Shown: one piece after another, positions 41,439-50,105 of the stretch
Numbering within the stretch: the first letter of the stretch is position 1
Layout of the letters: each line of letters begins with the position of its first letter
NCBI RefSeq assembly: GCF_000835495.1
Contig: NW_015622546.1
Span: 1,986,883 to 2,050,882 of the forward strand
Origin: Cladophialophora immunda
Taxonomy: Eukaryota > Ascomycota > Eurotiomycetes > Chaetothyriales > Herpotrichiellaceae
Direction of reading: 5' to 3'
DNA: 64,000 nt
Position numbers and translations under genes: made by a program
The notes under the pieces: generated by a model
The model's input: only the letters and a program-made list of their open reading frames with translations
Database searches by the model: none
Told to the model about the DNA's origin: nothing

Positions 41439-44400
41439 TTAGCGAAACTGCTCTCCGTATTTTCTTTGCGTTGAAGTCGTGCTGTAGCTCCTATTCACTC
41501 CACCTGATTGGTCAGCCGGGAACCCTCCGGGGAGCGAATCTCGAGGTTTGTTATCATTGGCTGGGATATGCTGAGCTTCACCACTAGATCGCCCGAACCC
41601 CGAAACTCGGCTCTGTGATGTGGGTTCGGTCTCAAACGCCGTCTCATCTTCTTCGTCCATGTCTTCCACAAAACTTCCCAGAATCATCCTCGTAACCGAT
41701 CCAGTCCAGGAAACGTGATCAATTATACCCCTTTCTCGATGTTAGTATAATGTTCGTCCACGTGGGCGCAAGATACTTACGGAATCTTGTATGCCTCCGA
41801 CAATTCATCATCCAGCCATTTGAGCCTCTTGGATGCATCTGGGTCTTCTCCGAATTGTATGAAAGAGATGCTAAACCAGCGATCTTCCAATCCATATTTA
41901 TGAACGAACGGATTTTTGACGAAGGTGGCAATCTTGTCCTCCACCGTGTTCCCCGTCGTCGTACCCCGCCATCGTCCATCAGTTAGCACCAGCAGGGTCA
42001 TTCGTTTCGATTTGGTTTGGTTGGTGTAATTGGTGAACACTCTTCCTAGAGTTTCGGCCATGTTGGTCCTTTTTTCCCCACTGGAATCTCTCACCGGCGA
42101 TGGAGCAGCTCTATCCATTTGTTTCCTGAATTCTTTGAAAGCATTTTTTCCTTTTGCATTGAACGGCATCTCGTGGCCAATGGTGAAGACCAAATCAAGC
42201 CCATCCTCGTCGAGAGGAGCTAGCTTCATGGCCAGAGTCTCTAGAACATAGGTTGCGACTTTCCAAAATGGCCCCATAGTATCTCCGTTATCGACAATGA
42301 AGATCTGTACCACAGTCAATCACGCAAGAATCGGCTAGATGATGAAACAAACAAACCATATCACGATCCGCGATGAATTTCTGTAGGTATCCGTCCACTT
42401 TTGGACTCTTGAAATACTTTGCAAGACCGCTGCGCTCAGGTTCGCGTTCAAGCTCTTCTCTCACCTTGTAGATATCGTAAGCTTTTTGGAGAGTAGGTTC
42501 CGCGGCAGTGTAAGAAGGAGACCGGTTGTGCGAACGCGATGTTTGCTCCCCAAGAATGTTCTGCGACCCAACGACAGAATTTTCCCTCAGGAGAGGCCCG
42601 AAATCTTCAGCTTTACCGGGCGGCTGCCGAGAAACCCGAGACGTCTGTGATAAATACTCTTTCAGACCTAGTGTCGCTGGGTCTGACAGAGGCGGGGATA
42701 ATGGCTGCTGTGGCTGCTTCCCCTTCCAGTCACCAGATATAAGATCCTTTTCGTAGTAGTATCCAGGGCTCTGGACATCCAAGTTGCGCATTCGAGGGTC
42801 CCGGCGATTGCGAGTAACATCAGGCACAATAGTGGGATGAGGACGTTGCTCTTGCTTCCCAGGGCTGGTGTTTCTGGCCTCGAGGAGGCGATCTAATACA
42901 GCATCTATATCGATTTCATCGGAGCCGTTCGAAGTATTCGGCACAGGGGCAGCGGCTAGTGTAAGGGAGTAATTATCTGGATGCGACTCGCTCTGATCTA
43001 GACCAGCGGACGCAGCCTCTCCATGCTGAGTCTCAGCGGAAGTCTCTGGTCCTGGGTGATATTCGAATGCCCTGAGCAAAGACGCTTCTGGAGTAGTGCA
43101 TATAGGCAAAGGGTTTCCCTCCCAGAATTGGTTCCACTGGTCTTCATCTGTTGGTGCTAGCTCGGGAATTTCAATGAGATCCGTGGAGAGCTCGTCGTCC
43201 TCGATTTCTATTTCGTCGGTGTCCACTGAGAGGCTGGTTTCCATTGCCTTTGCAATCGAACTGACCGCACTGACTCTAGTTTGAATCGTCGAGCTTGTGC
43301 CAGACGCAAAACCCTCCGAGTTCGTTGGCTCGCGGTTCTCGTCCTCCGGCAAAGAAAGAAGGGCTAGCGATATCATGTGCTCAGCGACATGATTCAGGAT
43401 ATCATTGAGAGGCATTGATTTGGCATCAAAGTCATCGAGACAGAGCGGACAATCTGTGAGTGGCTCACGTCTTGGGCGAGAGATCGCAGAGGATTCAACA
43501 AGCTCTTCAAGATCACTCTCCTCAAACTCATCCTTGTGCTCATCCCGCAAATGCGCCTCAAAATCTGTTCTCGAGTAGAAGCGAGACGGAGTACCGTGAG
43601 ATCTGTTGGTGCAAGTCCATATCGTTGTGGAATGTTGGTTGGCCATATGGGCTGTCCAGTCACCGAAAGACTCAAACAGCGTATCCGGCATGGAGCATCC
43701 ATCAAGCATGCACACATAGGGCATCAGATCCTGAATGAAGTGTCGCCTAAGCATGTTTTAGCACGGTGTCTCTGTGACAGATACAGACCTGACCATACTT
43801 CCAAAATTTTCCTTGCAACTCATTGGTGGAACAGACTAGGAAACAGTACGGACACTTGATGTAGCCACTGTCGTCCATGGGCTTCGGGGGTCGCGGCATC
43901 ATGCCATCAATTGCGTGGTATTTGCTCTCCAGAAATGTCGACGACGTACGAACGCTGTGAGTCTTGAAAACGCGCTGAACGTTGGCTGTTGAAGCGGTAA
44001 AGATGGTGGAGGTTGGTCCAACCCCTGACCTGCGTCGTTTGGAGTTGAGTTTCAGTACATCAGCAGGGCCGGAAGCAGCAGAGGCCCCCGCCGGTCTCAA
44101 AGGTAAGAGCGAAGATACACCATGGGACCCAAAAGCCGACATTCGTTTGCCCAGAGCTTCAGACGCCTTTACTTCGCGGTCGCGCAGGTAGCTGAAGTTT
44201 TGCCTCCTTAGGCTGATTGATTCAACCAACCGCAGTCTTGTTGATTTCGATGCTTTTGGGTGGCGTTTCTCCACAATGGTCTCAATACTTGCACGAAAGT
44301 GTTCAGAGAGGTCAATGAGCTTGCCATCGAATTCCAGAAGCTCGCGATAACTGGCGACCTTTGAGAGCCTGCTGAGCACTCCAGATCGATGAATGGCGCG

Positions 44401-44913
44401 GCATATATCAAACAAGCGGGTCTGGAAATCGTCAGTCTGTGCTAAATTGTGGGCAAGATGGTCGTTATCCGCGTCATGTGGGAGTCCGGGGTGGTTGACC
44501 GTCTCGAGGATGTCTGCGGCACCACTTAGATCAAGCCACTCGCGGTCAAGAATCTTCTCCAACTTACTTGACAAGGCGGTCTTGAAAGAATCCAACAGAT
44601 CCCGGACCACACTTGCGAGGACAGCAACATTTCGTAGTCGCCAATCCAAGCACATGCGGTCATTTGTGAAGACGAAGTTGTTGGCTGCCCAGAGACGGAA
44701 AAGAAAGACGGCATTCTCGGCAGATGGGAGCCCGGAAGCATCCTCGCGCCTCCATCTCTCCAAGAGCTGTAGACACTCGGCCGCTCTGTTGGATATCTCT
44801 GCTGGGATGTTCTTAGTCACCGTTAGTATTTCACATATAACCAAGAGATCATGAAGGAGAGGGGGCCAACTCTCTTCAGCTCTACCAGCCTTGGGTATGT
44901 ATCTTCTTACCAT
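41439..44913 (-). CDS. C2H2-finger and von Willebrand A-like domain protein, STAND-like N-terminus
   Basis: Four exons: 44913-43799, 43746-42357, 42304-41781, 41730-41439 (introns 52, 52, 50 nt); 1,106 residues. Residues 1-250 are a helical domain resembling the N-terminal domains of fungal NACHT/ankyrin and zinc-finger proteins (LFRLWAANNFVF, CLDWRLRNVAVL). A cluster of degenerate C2H2 fingers follows (IKCPYCFLVC; splicing gives KFWKRHFIQDLMPYVC; TDCPLCLDDF), then an acidic, disordered linker and a C-terminal vWA-like domain (MIFIVDNGDTM, LVLTDGRW). The MIDAS-like site reads DNGDT rather than DxSxS. The frame opens at GTG 44925; first ATG is 44913, and a 99-nt in-frame intron (GTAAGA, TACTAAC, CTAAG; 44910-44812) may directly follow that ATG. 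Function unknown; divergent from the S8 protease. Confidence 0.72.
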
Positions 44914-45638
44914 CTGCGCATTCACGGGACACGCCCCGCTACAGGTTGTTATTAGGAATCATCCCAAGTGAACGGTGTTCAGGAGCTTCATCAAGAGATG
45001 ATGACAGCCGGTGAAACCTGATGGAGATGTACATGACTGATGAGGCTGAGAAAGATCAACAGGTTGAACGCCAATCAAATGACGCCTCGTGGCGCCATCT
45101 TCGCGGGGCATTTTCCCGCCGAGCATTCCGAGTCTTCGACTTGGAAGCATGTATCAGATATCAGCCTCAGCCTGACCTCAACTTCCTTCTCTATTCCATC
45201 GCCATCGGAACAACTGATTCCCTATCCGTCATTTCATCGATATCGAGCTAGTCTCGCTTGGACACGATGTTCACCATATCTGTCTCACACTTTTCTGCCC
45301 TTCTCTAGGTTGGAGATGATTGATTTCACCTGCTTGGAGACCGCCTGTGGTTTCAATCTCGAAATTATGCACGCCGGGGCTCGTTGCTGTCAGCAAAAAC
45401 TGCCACAAGCAATGATTGAAGCCGAAGAAAGCTCGAAATCTATCTTGGTTGATACCTGGAGTTAGAGCCAAGGTCCAAAAGCCAATCTCAACTCGACCTA
45501 CTGTGCAGCTCCAAGGGCAAATGCGATTCGGGAGGCCTTCAAATCCACTGCAAAGCACACCACCGCGAGACCGAAGTCAACCTCAACCGCGTCTATCGCT
45601 CTGGTAAGCTTTTTGCGGGCCGGAGCAAGCCTGAGCCA
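44914..45638. promoter_or_regulatory. Divergent spacer between C2H2/vWA gene and S8 protease; possible 5' exon
   Basis: 725 bp. The frame from about 45470 to 45603 can be joined through a GTAAGC donor at 45604 and an AG at 45650-45651 to the protease frame in phase, so part of this spacer may be a protease 5' exon. An ATG-initiated frame at 45318 ends at 45465 and is not clearly connected. Confidence 0.4.
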
Positions 45639-48600
45639 ATGGCTGCCGAAGGAACTCGCCGTATAAGGACGGCTCGTCTCCGGAAACTGCTGCTAAAGCT
45701 CGCCTGGACCATTGCCACCGCAATCCAAACACTCCCCAACCAGACAGATCAACTGCGGAACCTCAAAATCTTACTCATATCGCCCTTATGGACTTCTTTG
45801 GAGAATCCGGATATCGAAAATGTGCTATCTTTGAATATTAGCATCAGCGGATGCCTGGAAGAAGTGGCCGAATCTCTGGAGATTCTCTTCGGTGGTGACC
45901 GGGAGAGCAACCTGAAAGTATGTTGCAGCCTCGCCCTTGCAGCCACTTTTCAATGCATATGCTAAGGGAATTAGACGCAAGACAGCCTTGAGAACTCGTT
46001 GCCCATGCTCCTGGAGCTCGAGAAACGCTGTGACACTACCTTTGGAGGCGAGCTCGTTCGAGAGAAGTTGTCTATGAGTCCCACTGTCGAGGATACCAAA
46101 TCTTTCTTGATCAACTGCATTGGCAAACTCGAAAAATGGAATTCCGTCTCGAAAATCAGTTCAGGGCATCATATTGATCATCCCTCTGATGATCCCAACC
46201 CGGCTACTATTGTACATCCCCTCCCGAAAATCGAGTACGCTGTCTTCGAGGGAAGCAACAGTACACATCATTTAACAGACCTACTTCACGACGTTTTGCA
46301 TGCCAATTGGCCCTGCCAAATCGGAGATCACAACCATGCCGGGAGACTCGGAGAATGCGAAGAAGCCAGGTTCTGCCTTGATTCGCGATGGAGCTTCAGC
46401 AAGACTATCGACTACTTCTCAATTGTCTTGTCAGGTCAAGGTGTTCTGCAAGAATGCAAGTTTTGCATTCTCGCAAACAGGTACGTCTCTATTAATCTAC
46501 TCGCACGGGGACAGCGTCAAGGCGCGCTATTGACTCTCACGAGAACCCACCGCTCAAACTGGTATTATCAGGCTTTTTACAAGATTGAAATACGTCTGTT
46601 TAACCGTGATCGAGAGAGGCCCAGAGCTTACCTCTACGAATAGAACTGGCATTATGCAATCATGCAAAGGGTGAATATTGAGTGTGGTTGCGAATAGCCC
46701 TCGAGAGGCAATAGCGGCACTTTTTGCTGTCCCCTGAGAGCCACCTGCAACAAGACCTGTCGCAATCAGCGATTGAACTTGATGGCTAACTGTGTGATTC
46801 TAGCTTACGTCCGAAAGGGACCAAGCAAGAAATGTGCTTAACGGTACACAGCAGTATGCGCGATTATTGTCTCAACCTCGCCATGACAGATACTACGGGA
46901 CTATGGATTCGCTGGAAGCAAAGCCCCACTTTGTTTGAATCTCATTCGATCTCCAGATGTCGAGAGATGACATTGCGGGAGCTCCTTGGCACGGTAACCC
47001 TGACAATTTGCGCCAGACGCGTGATCGGGCTGGTCCTCGCTCGAGCTGCACTCCATCTTCTTGGGGGGAAATGGGCCAGCTCACCCCTTTCGCTGGACAA
47101 TATTATACTTTATCATACAATTGTCGACGGGCGACCACTCTTCTATTTCGATAAAATCTTTGTCTCCACCCGATTTTCAGAGCCCGGCCCTGGTTCCACC
47201 CAGTCGTATGATGATGTTCCCGTTTCACCATTGTACGGTATTCATGACCTCGCTGTGGTACTCGCAAAGATCGAGTTAGGGGAAAACCTCGCTCGAGTTG
47301 AAGAGAAGATCGGACTCGCATTGGAAGCGAATCCCCTTGCTCTGGGCAAGTCTCTGCTTAAGCAATGTCGGCTCTACTCTTCATCGCCTCCTTCCACCAT
47401 CGAATTCTGTCTGGATCCGTCTTCCTTTGACGACTTTGAAGATTTGGATCAGGAAGAACTCCTGGTGAACCGAGATTTCATCAACGCCTACTACAAGGGC
47501 GTTATACGGCCTCTAGAAGGCTGGCTTATCAAATATGGCTGGACATGGAAGCAAGTCAATTGGCACCAACCTTATGTGATGGATCACAACGGCATTTGTC
47601 ACTTCGTGCAGCATGCAAAGTCAGGAGAGCCGTTTGGAAAGACGCAAACACTGAAAATACGAGAGAACACTAGACCAACCTTATCTATCGACCCTGTACG
47701 CGAAACGAACAACGATTTGCAGATTGAGTGGTCAGGACAACCACCGGGCAGCGTCATGGACTATGGCTCCTTATCTTCTACAGTGACCTATGATCGAGCG
47801 TGGGCTCCCAGCTTTCCCGACAAGTAGCAGACTCGAAGTGCTAACAACTGTTCAGGGACAATTGGTTTGTCAATCTGAAGAGAATGCTCGGCAACATTTA
47901 TCGCGACTCGCTCCTTACCTCGTCCAAAACCGAGGAGTTGAAATATCCCAAAGTGGCAATCATCGATACAGGTATTTACTTAGGGCACCCCGAGCTGCAA
48001 CCGTTTGTCAATTCTGGACACATAGCGGGATGGCACGATTTTGTACTAGGCAATGAGTCAAATGAGGACCTCGATGGTCATGGCACGCACGTTTCCCATC
48101 TCTTGCTCAAGACAGCACCTTACTTACGCTTGTATCATGCAAGGGCATTCCGACATTCCGATGCTGACGCAGACACGGCCACGCTGGTCGCGCGGGTGAG
48201 CGGTTCCGGATGACGCAAAATGATTAATGACTGACGTCGACAGGCAATCCGTCATGCCGTGGATAAGTGGAATGTGGACATCATCTCCATGTCATTCGCC
48301 TTTGAAGAACTGGATGTAGGCATCTTGAATGCGATACACCACGCGGTGGACTGCGGGGTCTTGTTGTTCGCCGCCGCATCCAACAACAGAGCAGAGAGGC
48401 GAAACCCCATCGGATATCCTGCGCGGGAGGAGAACGTTATATGCGTCAACTCGACCGATGACCAGGGGAACAAATCCACCTTCAGTCCAGAAGGGGTAGA
48501 GCGGGACTACAACTTCGCCGTCCTAGGAGAAAACCTAGAGGCAGCATGGCCACCGACACAAAACAATGGCCAGAACTTGAAGAGAGTCACGGGCACGTCG

Positions 48601-48846
48601 CAAGCGACTCCTCTGGTCGCGGGGATCGCGGCAATCATTCTTCATGTCACGAGGATGAAGCAGTTCGGCAAATTCGACATGGAAACTTTGCTCAAGCAGG
48701 CTCGGGGCATGAGAAAGGTATTGTATGAATGCATGACGAAGAAGCAGGGGGCACCTCGTTACAATTATATCACGCCTGGGGATCTCTTTAACTCGAAGCT
48801 GTCGAGTATCAGAGTCAAGATCGAGTCGGCGTTGGAGAATCTATAG
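45639..48846 (+). CDS. Intracellular subtilisin-like (S8) protease with NLR-like N-terminal half
   Basis: Model: 45639-45917, 45975-46480, 46804-47799, 47856-48195, 48244-48846; 907 residues. The N-terminal half (LRKLLLKLAWTIATAIQTLP, TLRELLGTVTLTI) resembles the helical DUF7580-type region found in fungal proteases and NLR-like proteins; no NB-ARC motif is visible. The C-terminal S8 domain has an intact triad: Asp in AIIDTGI (47965-47967), His in DGHGTH (48079-48081), Ser in GTSQATP (48598-48600). No signal peptide or propeptide, so it should act in the cytosol. Weak points: start (ATG 45639 has a poor context, an upstream exon is possible), and a 323-nt join at 46481-46803, much longer than any other intron here. 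Tandem to the gasdermin-like gene: likely its activating protease (inference from het-Q). Confidence 0.72.
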
Positions 48847-49232
48847 CCATGAGCCCTTGGGACGGGTTCTGAGGATTAGTATCTTGTTCTTTTTTTATGA
48901 GTTTGAATGAGCAAGCGGCACCTTGAGCGGCAGAGATCAAGCTAGATTCCCCGGTAGACCATCTTTTGCAGAATTCTAGCCACAGCAAAATAACTACAGA
49001 GCCCCTTGGATCCCAGCCGAAGGCTGCCGCGCAACTTGTAGAGCGGAGGCCGACCGGTTTATGTAGAAGAAACATTGACACCCAACATCCAATCACAGAA
49101 TATTTACAGTAACCACCCTCCTGCCCTGCCCGAACCTGTATTCTCCAGGCAAAATTCCAACGACGCCAACGACGGCAGGATTCTGAGCAGCCATCGACCA
49201 CTGAAACTCTCAGACTGATTCCCCACAAGAAG
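48847..49232. promoter_or_regulatory. Spacer before the gasdermin-like gene
   Basis: 386 bp between the protease stop and the next ATG on the same strand. No gene or clear core promoter motif seen. Confidence 0.4.
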
Positions 49233-50105
49233 ATGTCTCGAACCTATAAACGCTGGATCTTCACCAAATCAACCGAATACCGCCCAAACGGAGTGCTCCG
49301 GCTCGGCCAGATCCTCAGCGACCCGTTCGACCCGGCCTCCGCTCTCCATCCACAAGGTCCACTGCCCATTCCAGACGACTTGACCGTTGAAGACAGCGAG
49401 CTCTCCGGGGTCACCGTGTCCCGGGCTAGCGAGCTGTCCGCGCAGTTTGGGCTGTGGGCGGACCTGACGGGGATTGCTGGGCCCGTGGGGTCCCGCACGG
49501 AGGCGTCTATGCGCAGGGTGCAGTCCCAGGACTGGACGATTGAGAAGCTCCTCAGCCACATCTTCACGCCCTCGAACGAATACGTCGACGCATCGCTCCG
49601 CCATGGCGACGTGCCCGCTACGCTAAAGAACGTGTGGCTCTTCAAGAAGCGGCTGTACATGCTCACCGGTGTCCGCGTGGTCCAGGGTGCGCGCATGAAC
49701 ACCGCGGAAGAGCGCTCCGGGAGCACCAAGGGCAGCGTGCAGGCCGATGCAACCTCCCTGGGCGCGCCGGTCACAGTCGGAATCAGCACGGAGATCACGA
49801 ACAAACGTTCTCGGGACATGGCGTTTGAAGGAGCTACGGATTTCGTGTTCGCTTATCGACTCCAGCAGATCTTCTACTACGGCGTGAACAAAGACCCGAA
49901 GCATGCGCCGTTTAAGAAAGGCGAGACTTCGGCGGCGGGCCGGTCGTCGCAGCAGAAAGAGCAGCCGGAGGAGGTGTTTGACGACTTCGAGGTCCTGAAC
50001 GTCGATGAGGATGACTACGAAGGCGACGATATGCACGGTGTGACCGAGGTTGTGGTTCCTGGTTTCGAGAATGTGGGCGTATTAGTCCAACAAGACTCCC
50101 ACTGA
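49233..50105 (+). CDS. Gasdermin-like protein (RCD-1/HET-Q1 family candidate)
   Basis: Single exon, 290 residues. The order of segments follows the gasdermin pore-forming domain: an N-terminal strand-turn (KRWIFTKSTEY) ending in a LPIPDDL motif (compare the LIPVP of animal gasdermins), an amphipathic strand pair (SELSGVTVSRASELSAQFGL), an LKNVWLFKKRLYMLTGVRVV strand equivalent to the animal VLCVLTQKI block, a hairpin region (VQADATSLGAPVTVGISTEI) and FVFAYRLQQIFYYG equivalent to TIAYGVIELY. The last 50 residues are an acidic linker (NVDEDDYEGDD) plus a short tail, as in fungal gasdermins, where a protease removes a C-terminal peptide of about 5 kDa. Family: pore-forming executor of regulated cell death at the plasma membrane. 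Identification is by pattern recognition, supported by the S8 protease 386 bp upstream. Confidence 0.7.
   Translation: MSRTYKRWIFTKSTEYRPNGVLRLGQILSDPFDPASALHPQGPLPIPDDLTVEDSELSGVTVSRASELSAQFGLWADLTGIAGPVGSRTEASMRRVQSQDWTIEKLLSHIFTPSNEYVDASLRHGDVPATLKNVWLFKKRLYMLTGVRVVQGARMNTAEERSGSTKGSVQADATSLGAPVTVGISTEITNKRSRDMAFEGATDFVFAYRLQQIFYYGVNKDPKHAPFKKGETSAAGRSSQQKEQPEEVFDDFEVLNVDEDDYEGDDMHGVTEVVVPGFENVGVLVQQDSH

Follow-up and report, generated by a model that had tools for sequence, protein, structure and literature searches.

A gasdermin gene of Cladophialophora immunda forms a probable cell-death cassette with a DUF7580-S8 protease gene and a divergent C2H2-type gene

In fungi, about 80% of gasdermin genes are clustered with a gene that encodes a protease, and about 63% with one for an S8 (subtilisin) protease (PMC10197012; this and the other articles given by PMC number are cited from parts of their text). 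In the HET-Q1/HET-Q2 system of Podospora anserina, the 278-residue gasdermin HET-Q1 is cut at Phe238, losing 40 residues, and its S8 partner HET-Q2 is 388 residues long (PMC10989679). RCD-1 of Neurospora crassa, in contrast, acts by allelic pairing without cutting (PMC12881547). A 64,000-nucleotide stretch of the Cladophialophora immunda genome (NW_015622546.1, positions 1,986,883 to 2,050,882; hereafter the window) carries a gasdermin gene next to an S8 protease gene. Given the share of fungal gasdermins clustered with a protease gene, the pair belongs to a known kind, and it was confirmed as ordinary for that kind. Together with a third gene, it probably makes up a cell-death cassette consisting of a gasdermin, a DUF7580-S8 sensor-protease, and a divergent C2H2-type partner (Table 1).

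The locus resembles HET-Q1/HET-Q2 in near-equal gasdermin length (278 versus 290 amino acids), a Phe some 40 residues before the C terminus, and an S8 partner. However, HET-Q2 has 388 amino acids, whereas the protease here is a multidomain protein of 907 with an N-terminal DUF7580-like region, and here both genes stand in tandem in one genome with a C2H2-type gene alongside. An earlier note on this DNA had proposed a het-Q-type executor with its activating protease. The gasdermin plus S8 part of that proposal was supported, the two being probably an executor and its activating protease, a third, C2H2-type gene appears to belong as well, and the label is loose given the size and domains of the protease, which is closer to the "Q2-like" sensor proteases. 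The two-gene clusters of Q2-like proteases and fungal gasdermins (Clave et al. 2022, via reviews) share an S8 gene close to the gasdermin gene, but a divergent C2H2 partner is unmentioned in the accounts consulted (parts of PMC10197012 and PMC12881547).

Table 1. Coordinates of the cassette features within the window
Feature	Position	Strand	Basis
C2H2-type partner gene, downstream coding part with zinc-finger-like array	42288..43746	-	ORF, Cys/His pattern
Upstream coding part of the C2H2-type partner gene (uncertain 5' end)	43799..44913	-	ORF
Divergent intergenic region, C2H2-type gene to protease gene, about 0.7 kb	44914..45638	.	
Protease exon 1	45639..45917	+	Five-exon model, public protein identity
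Protease exon 2	45975..46480	+	Five-exon model, public protein identity
DUF7580 match (residues 198-430) with intron 46481-46803 inside it; may be a degenerate kinase	46287..47308	+	24.9 bits, E 1.9e-5
Protease exon 3	46804..47799	+	Five-exon model, public protein identity
Protease exon 4, holds Asp631 and His669	47856..48195	+	Five-exon model, public protein identity
Peptidase_S8 match, residues 624-842, interrupted by intron 48196-48243	47944..48648	+	104.8 bits
Protease exon 5, holds Asn754, Ser826, and stop	48244..48846	+	Five-exon model, public protein identity
Gasdermin gene, single exon, 290 amino acids	49233..50105	+	Sequence homology, fold; coding ORF 49233-50102
Phe252 codon in D-F-[E/D] motif, predicted cut site (P1)	49986..49988	+	26/27 rows; analogy with HET-Q1 F238
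C-terminal tail of 38 residues (4.19 kDa), predicted to inhibit and to be cleaved off	49989..50102	+	Model, alignment

The open reading frame (ORF) at 49233-50102 is a fungal gasdermin. Using phmmer, its best sequence match was the HET-Q1 pore (9uv9; E value, 1.4e-9), followed by RCD-1-2 (1.1e-6) and RCD-1-1 (9.8e-5), and comparison of its predicted structure with known gasdermins, as suggested in the earlier note, returned the gasdermin N-domain fold, with RCD-1 chains as the best matches. The coordinates, strand, single exon, and 290 residues given there held, as did the 386-bp gap to the protease gene (48847-49232). No Pfam family matched the ORF at an E value of ≤1, and no viral relatives were identified in one viral_contigs scan with the gasdermin alignment. 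A chance or misread ORF was considered and ruled out by the phmmer homology, the identity of the neighboring protease to an annotated protein, and the fold. Its best protein match was at 90%, with no identical protein returned, while the neighboring protease was annotated at 100%; the gasdermin gene may be absent from public annotation.

As the earlier note had described, the C-terminal tail is acidic, with a net charge of -15 across residues 240-290. A D-F-[E/D] motif was kept in 26 of 27 aligned gasdermins, the only row without it being P0023, which ends earlier. In 24 of these 26 rows, 34 to 43 residues follow the motif Phe; the exceptions were P0020, a fused protein (196 residues), and P0026, a short one (16 residues). 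Since Phe252 would leave 38 residues, much as F238 of HET-Q1 leaves 40, this conservation makes a cut site predictable, and the family pattern and the likeness to HET-Q1 point to Phe252 as the cleavage site. In the structural model, residues 219-252 were unconfident and residues 253-290 were strand-forming (block pLDDT of about 61 to 83), as would fit a hinged inhibitory tail. The short tail typical of fungal gasdermins is present and conserved, with a predicted inhibitory role.

The five-exon protease model was identical at 907 of 907 residues to PV07_10257 of C. immunda. The subtilisin triad recognized in the earlier note is intact (D631, H669, and S826, plus Asn754), and all four residues were invariant in an alignment of the protease with three relatives. 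Two features of Q2-like proteases are present, an S8 domain with an Asp/His/Ser triad and a gene located within 10 kb of a gasdermin gene (here 386 bp). From the N terminus, the protein comprises a helical region (residues ∼1 to 155, from the model), the DUF7580-matched middle (198-430), a low-confidence linker (531-572), and the S8 domain (624-842). Its N terminus has one mildly hydrophobic stretch (best 19-residue mean of 0.74, from hydropathy only and no signal-peptide predictor), and no propeptide family was among its Pfam matches. The DUF7580-S8 layout is common, with both domains present in 84 of the 120 listed relatives (of 175) of an S8 domain from Fusarium.

Searches of the C. immunda genome took best candidates only, so every genome count given here is a lower bound. 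Four clear gasdermins were identified using three queries, and 17 S8 matches were merged into 15 loci. An S8 match lay 466 to 687 bp from each of the four, with a DUF7580 match a further 120 to 493 bp beyond it on the same strand (that of the window taken from the protein scan); at C6 one open frame holds both DUF7580 and S8. Random placement near one of the 15 S8 loci would occur at about 0.0016 per gene, and the gasdermin/S8 pairing is beyond chance. Two pairs were co-oriented and two convergent, hence linkage rather than one fixed order has been kept. Of the 25 DUF7580 loci, five have S8, and clear gasdermins were found at four of these five; the 20 that lack S8 had none (blind placement among 25 loci, P = 0.0004). 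A profile scan of 8 of these 20 loci found no gasdermin; the profile was A1 without P0020 plus three paralogues, which therefore match by construction. Three S8 loci without DUF7580 (L016, L018, and L019) had neither a gasdermin nor a C2H2 match.

Neighboring homologues, which the earlier note had named as a check, were also found outside C. immunda. In Fusarium sp. DS 682, the locus numbers of the gasdermin (IL306_005884) and the protease (IL306_005886) differ by two, and the contig is 22,947 bases long. In Dendryphion nanum, gasdermin and protease matches (P0019/P0043) were on contigs of equal length, 4,805,646 bases. No further shared contig was identified among the 26 gasdermin and 13 protease matches compared.

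Upstream of the protease gene and head-to-head with it lies the C2H2-type gene, whose two coding parts are joined by a proposed 52-base GT-AG intron (43747-43798). No Pfam family matched either part at an E value of ≤0.1. In a relative at L024 (G000:C2:3057000-3062500, minus strand), C2H2 zinc-finger matches were under the cut-off (20.0 versus 27 bits), and the Cys/His pattern of the array was largely kept at 13 loci examined. The L024 protein also carries a paired amphipathic helix (PAH) match after the fingers (29 versus a cut-off of 21.3 bits), so the C termini of the partner proteins are variable. A genome search with this pattern gave 17 matches; with a second query, two more came up within the fingers, and a third query gave no more. 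C3:806368 was not counted, since its match falls outside the fingers, nor was C6:1541774, which belongs to one gene with C6:1540482. The window's own DUF7580 place, missing from the genome listing, was added by hand.

Of these 19 matches, 17 had a DUF7580 locus at a distance of 2.1 to 4.6 kb (<5 kb), and in 16 of these cases the arrangement was divergent. When 19 points were placed at random 20,000 times, on average 0.12 and at most 3 of them fell near DUF7580, in a control that ignores gene density and relatedness. Seen from the other side, 17 of 25 DUF7580 loci had a C2H2 match. At 13 loci compared, sequence distances within one family correlated with those within the other (Mantel r = 0.39, P = 0.007). 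Partners that travel together would be expected to show this, and old block duplication would give the same. The matches away from DUF7580 were C7:2084408 and C3:3627615. The latter was 3.7 kb head-to-head from a PigL_N match (G000:C3:3627615-3632047) and is possibly a variant of the pairing that uses a different death-type domain. The 17 PigL_N places listed all lay more than 10 kb from any listed DUF7580 place.

As linkage within one genome, the association of the cassette with its C2H2-type partner is strong; as mechanism it is hypothetical. The strings "c2h2" and "zinc" have no occurrences in the text of PMC12881547, and neither a C2H2 partner nor a head-to-head unit is mentioned in the parts searched of PMC12881547, PMC10197012, PMC10989679, PMC11138114, PMC12258605, and PMC9262711. 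In the titles and abstract openings listed, which did not cover the architectures in the primary report of Clave et al. 2022, no account of a C2H2/DUF7580 pair was found; a literature search for DUF7580 by name returned nothing, and one for Cladophialophora with gasdermin returned unrelated work only. C2H2 fingers occur in 34 Sordariales NLRs, where the authors suggest zinc-finger domains as sensors (PMC12258605), which would fit a sensing role for the partner here without showing such a role.

According to a review (PMC12881547), the proteases that control gasdermins may carry fused domains predicted to be kinase-like, and a degenerate kinase is the leading guess for DUF7580, not a result. 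When 12 kinases of the same genome were compared with DUF7580 profiles using hhalign, the same landmarks appeared in the same order in three overlapping alignments. Of 14 kinase loci, 12 went into alignment A5, the other two having inner stops. A6 comprised 10 of 25 DUF7580 loci. A3 comprised 77 of 85 DUF7580-S8 proteins; the 85 were 84 of the 120 listed rows plus P0034, and six metagenome proteins, one very long protein, and one short one were left out. A PDB search with the DUF7580 profile gave four weak matches (E values, 0.66 to 1.4), three of them kinases. However, the hhalign probability was 6.5 to 7.5% (P of about 0.005, with one control at P = 0.3), both Foldseek runs on the protease model were led by subtilisins, and kinases appeared there only at E values of 0.69 and 1.3 (viral library). 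HRD and DFG strings, expected of an active kinase, were absent from residues 156-585. Eight DUF7580 loci had no C2H2 match; two were near a HeLo match and two near a kinase match with the same open-frame length, and these four are read as HeLo or kinase fused with DUF7580 in one gene. At two places, G000:C5:2470405-2472726 and G000:C7:3309057-3311237, kinase and DUF7580 matches were close, in open frames of 1027 and 1026 amino acids with no C2H2 nearby, and each is probably a fusion of a kinase with DUF7580. The known MLKL-like proteins, in which a HeLo/HELL domain is joined to a kinase or pseudokinase domain (PMC12881547), are similar in that the two HeLo matches here lie near DUF7580 at equal open-frame length, but the cassette uses a protease and a gasdermin in place of a helical bundle.

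Homology, fold, the triad, gene order, and within-genome linkage were demonstrated for the cassette, and we infer cleavage, the cut site, pore formation, cell location, the trigger, and every role given to the C2H2-type protein. The gasdermin would be synthesized in an inactive state, its acidic C-terminal tail restraining pore formation. As an intracellular sensor-protease, the DUF7580-S8 protein would be triggered through its N-terminal helical and kinase-like part, and its subtilisin domain would then cut the gasdermin after Phe252, freeing the 38-residue tail. The remaining gasdermin would oligomerize in the plasma membrane and kill the cell. The C2H2-type protein most likely controls or senses for the DUF7580 protein, as a sensor, decoy, or inhibitor, and would less likely be a transcription factor only. 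The cassette may serve in non-self recognition or defense, as the earlier note supposed; ten other large ORFs scanned in the window matched ordinary metabolic or cellular families, so no defense-island setting was seen.

Several observations weigh against this reading. The gasdermin model was of moderate confidence (pLDDT of 63.8), with TM-scores against RCD-1 of 0.34 to 0.40 by query length in the ten best rows. The protease DUF7580 match, at 24.9 bits (E value, 1.9e-5), was under the curated cut-off of 27, although PF24476.2 is precomputed in the protein database for P0027, identical to the protease, and at each of the other three clear gasdermins the neighboring DUF7580 match did pass the cut-off. 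Two weaker gasdermin candidates, C8:732315 and C2:2310879, were not beside an S8 match; counting them, four of six gasdermins were. The first (E value, 0.042; region L043, G000:C8:731500-733500) has three stretches in gasdermin-profile order (24.0, 17.5, and 13.9 bits), making it a candidate intron-split or decayed gasdermin gene; some 15 kb separate it from the fifth DUF7580-S8 gene, also on C8. The second (E value, 0.0017) has one inner stop and scored 14.0 bits by profile, with no listed S8 match near. That fifth gene had no gasdermin in the 9.9 kb examined (L017, G000:C8:711500-721400). Lastly, 8 of 25 DUF7580 loci lack a C2H2 match, and the C2H2 linkage comes from one genome only, where old duplication of the unit can explain it too. 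At L017, the triad of the protease looks intact by eye, and a phosphorylase family (PNP_UDP_1) matches the divergent C2H2-type gene weakly, at 14.8 bits.

Cleavage is not a requirement for every fungal gasdermin, given that RCD-1 is cleavage independent (PMC12881547), and RCD-1 chains were the best fold matches. An RCD-1-like gasdermin, acting through an antagonistic allele after cell fusion while the protease has another target, is nevertheless unlikely: the best sequence match is HET-Q1, nearly every aligned gasdermin kept the tail motif, and each of the four clear gasdermins is linked to a protease, as is the one in Fusarium sp. DS 682. A pore serving secretion or septal sealing rather than death would draw on the naming of secretion, in a review, as a process worth exploring for two-gene clusters (PMC12881547); as both characterized fungal systems kill the cell (PMC12881547 and PMC10197012), it is more improbable still.

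The C2H2/DUF7580 pairing, on the other hand, could quite conceivably be a duplicated block or shared two-way promoter only, with the C2H2-type protein an ordinary transcription factor outside the death switch, although this falls short of being probable. Block duplication would make the two families co-diverge as they do, the intergenic region spans about 0.7 kb, and relatedness is ignored by the random control of the linkage. However, the pair stays together at 16 divergent loci on seven contigs, with the other C2H2 matches just 23 to 47% identical to that of the window, and half of the C2H2-less DUF7580 loci have a close HeLo or kinase match at equal open-frame length, read as a fused gene.

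The C2H2/DUF7580 pair has the look of a control unit that can be reused. Plant paired NLR receptors are encoded by head-to-head divergent genes, one a possible sensor and one a possible executor; the two-gene layout is alike, and since the proteins are unrelated the comparison is an analogy only. Tentatively, the head-to-head pair may be a general fungal immune control unit, with a sensor or decoy and a pseudokinase-like switch serving different executioners: a fused S8 domain that fires a gasdermin (pyroptosis-like) here, or other domains (necroptosis-like) at the other copies. If so, gasdermin genes would be one output of a larger paired-receptor system, unrecognized because the second gene is on the opposite strand. 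The stimuli that activate the putative sensors of fungal death pathways are a major open question (PMC12881547), and were the C2H2-type protein coupled to the sensor-protease, it would be a concrete candidate gene for that question. Down to the residue, the conserved Phe motif predicts how an entire branch of fungal gasdermins may be switched on, and through the DUF7580 part that they have in common, gasdermin death and HeLo-type death would follow a single control design.

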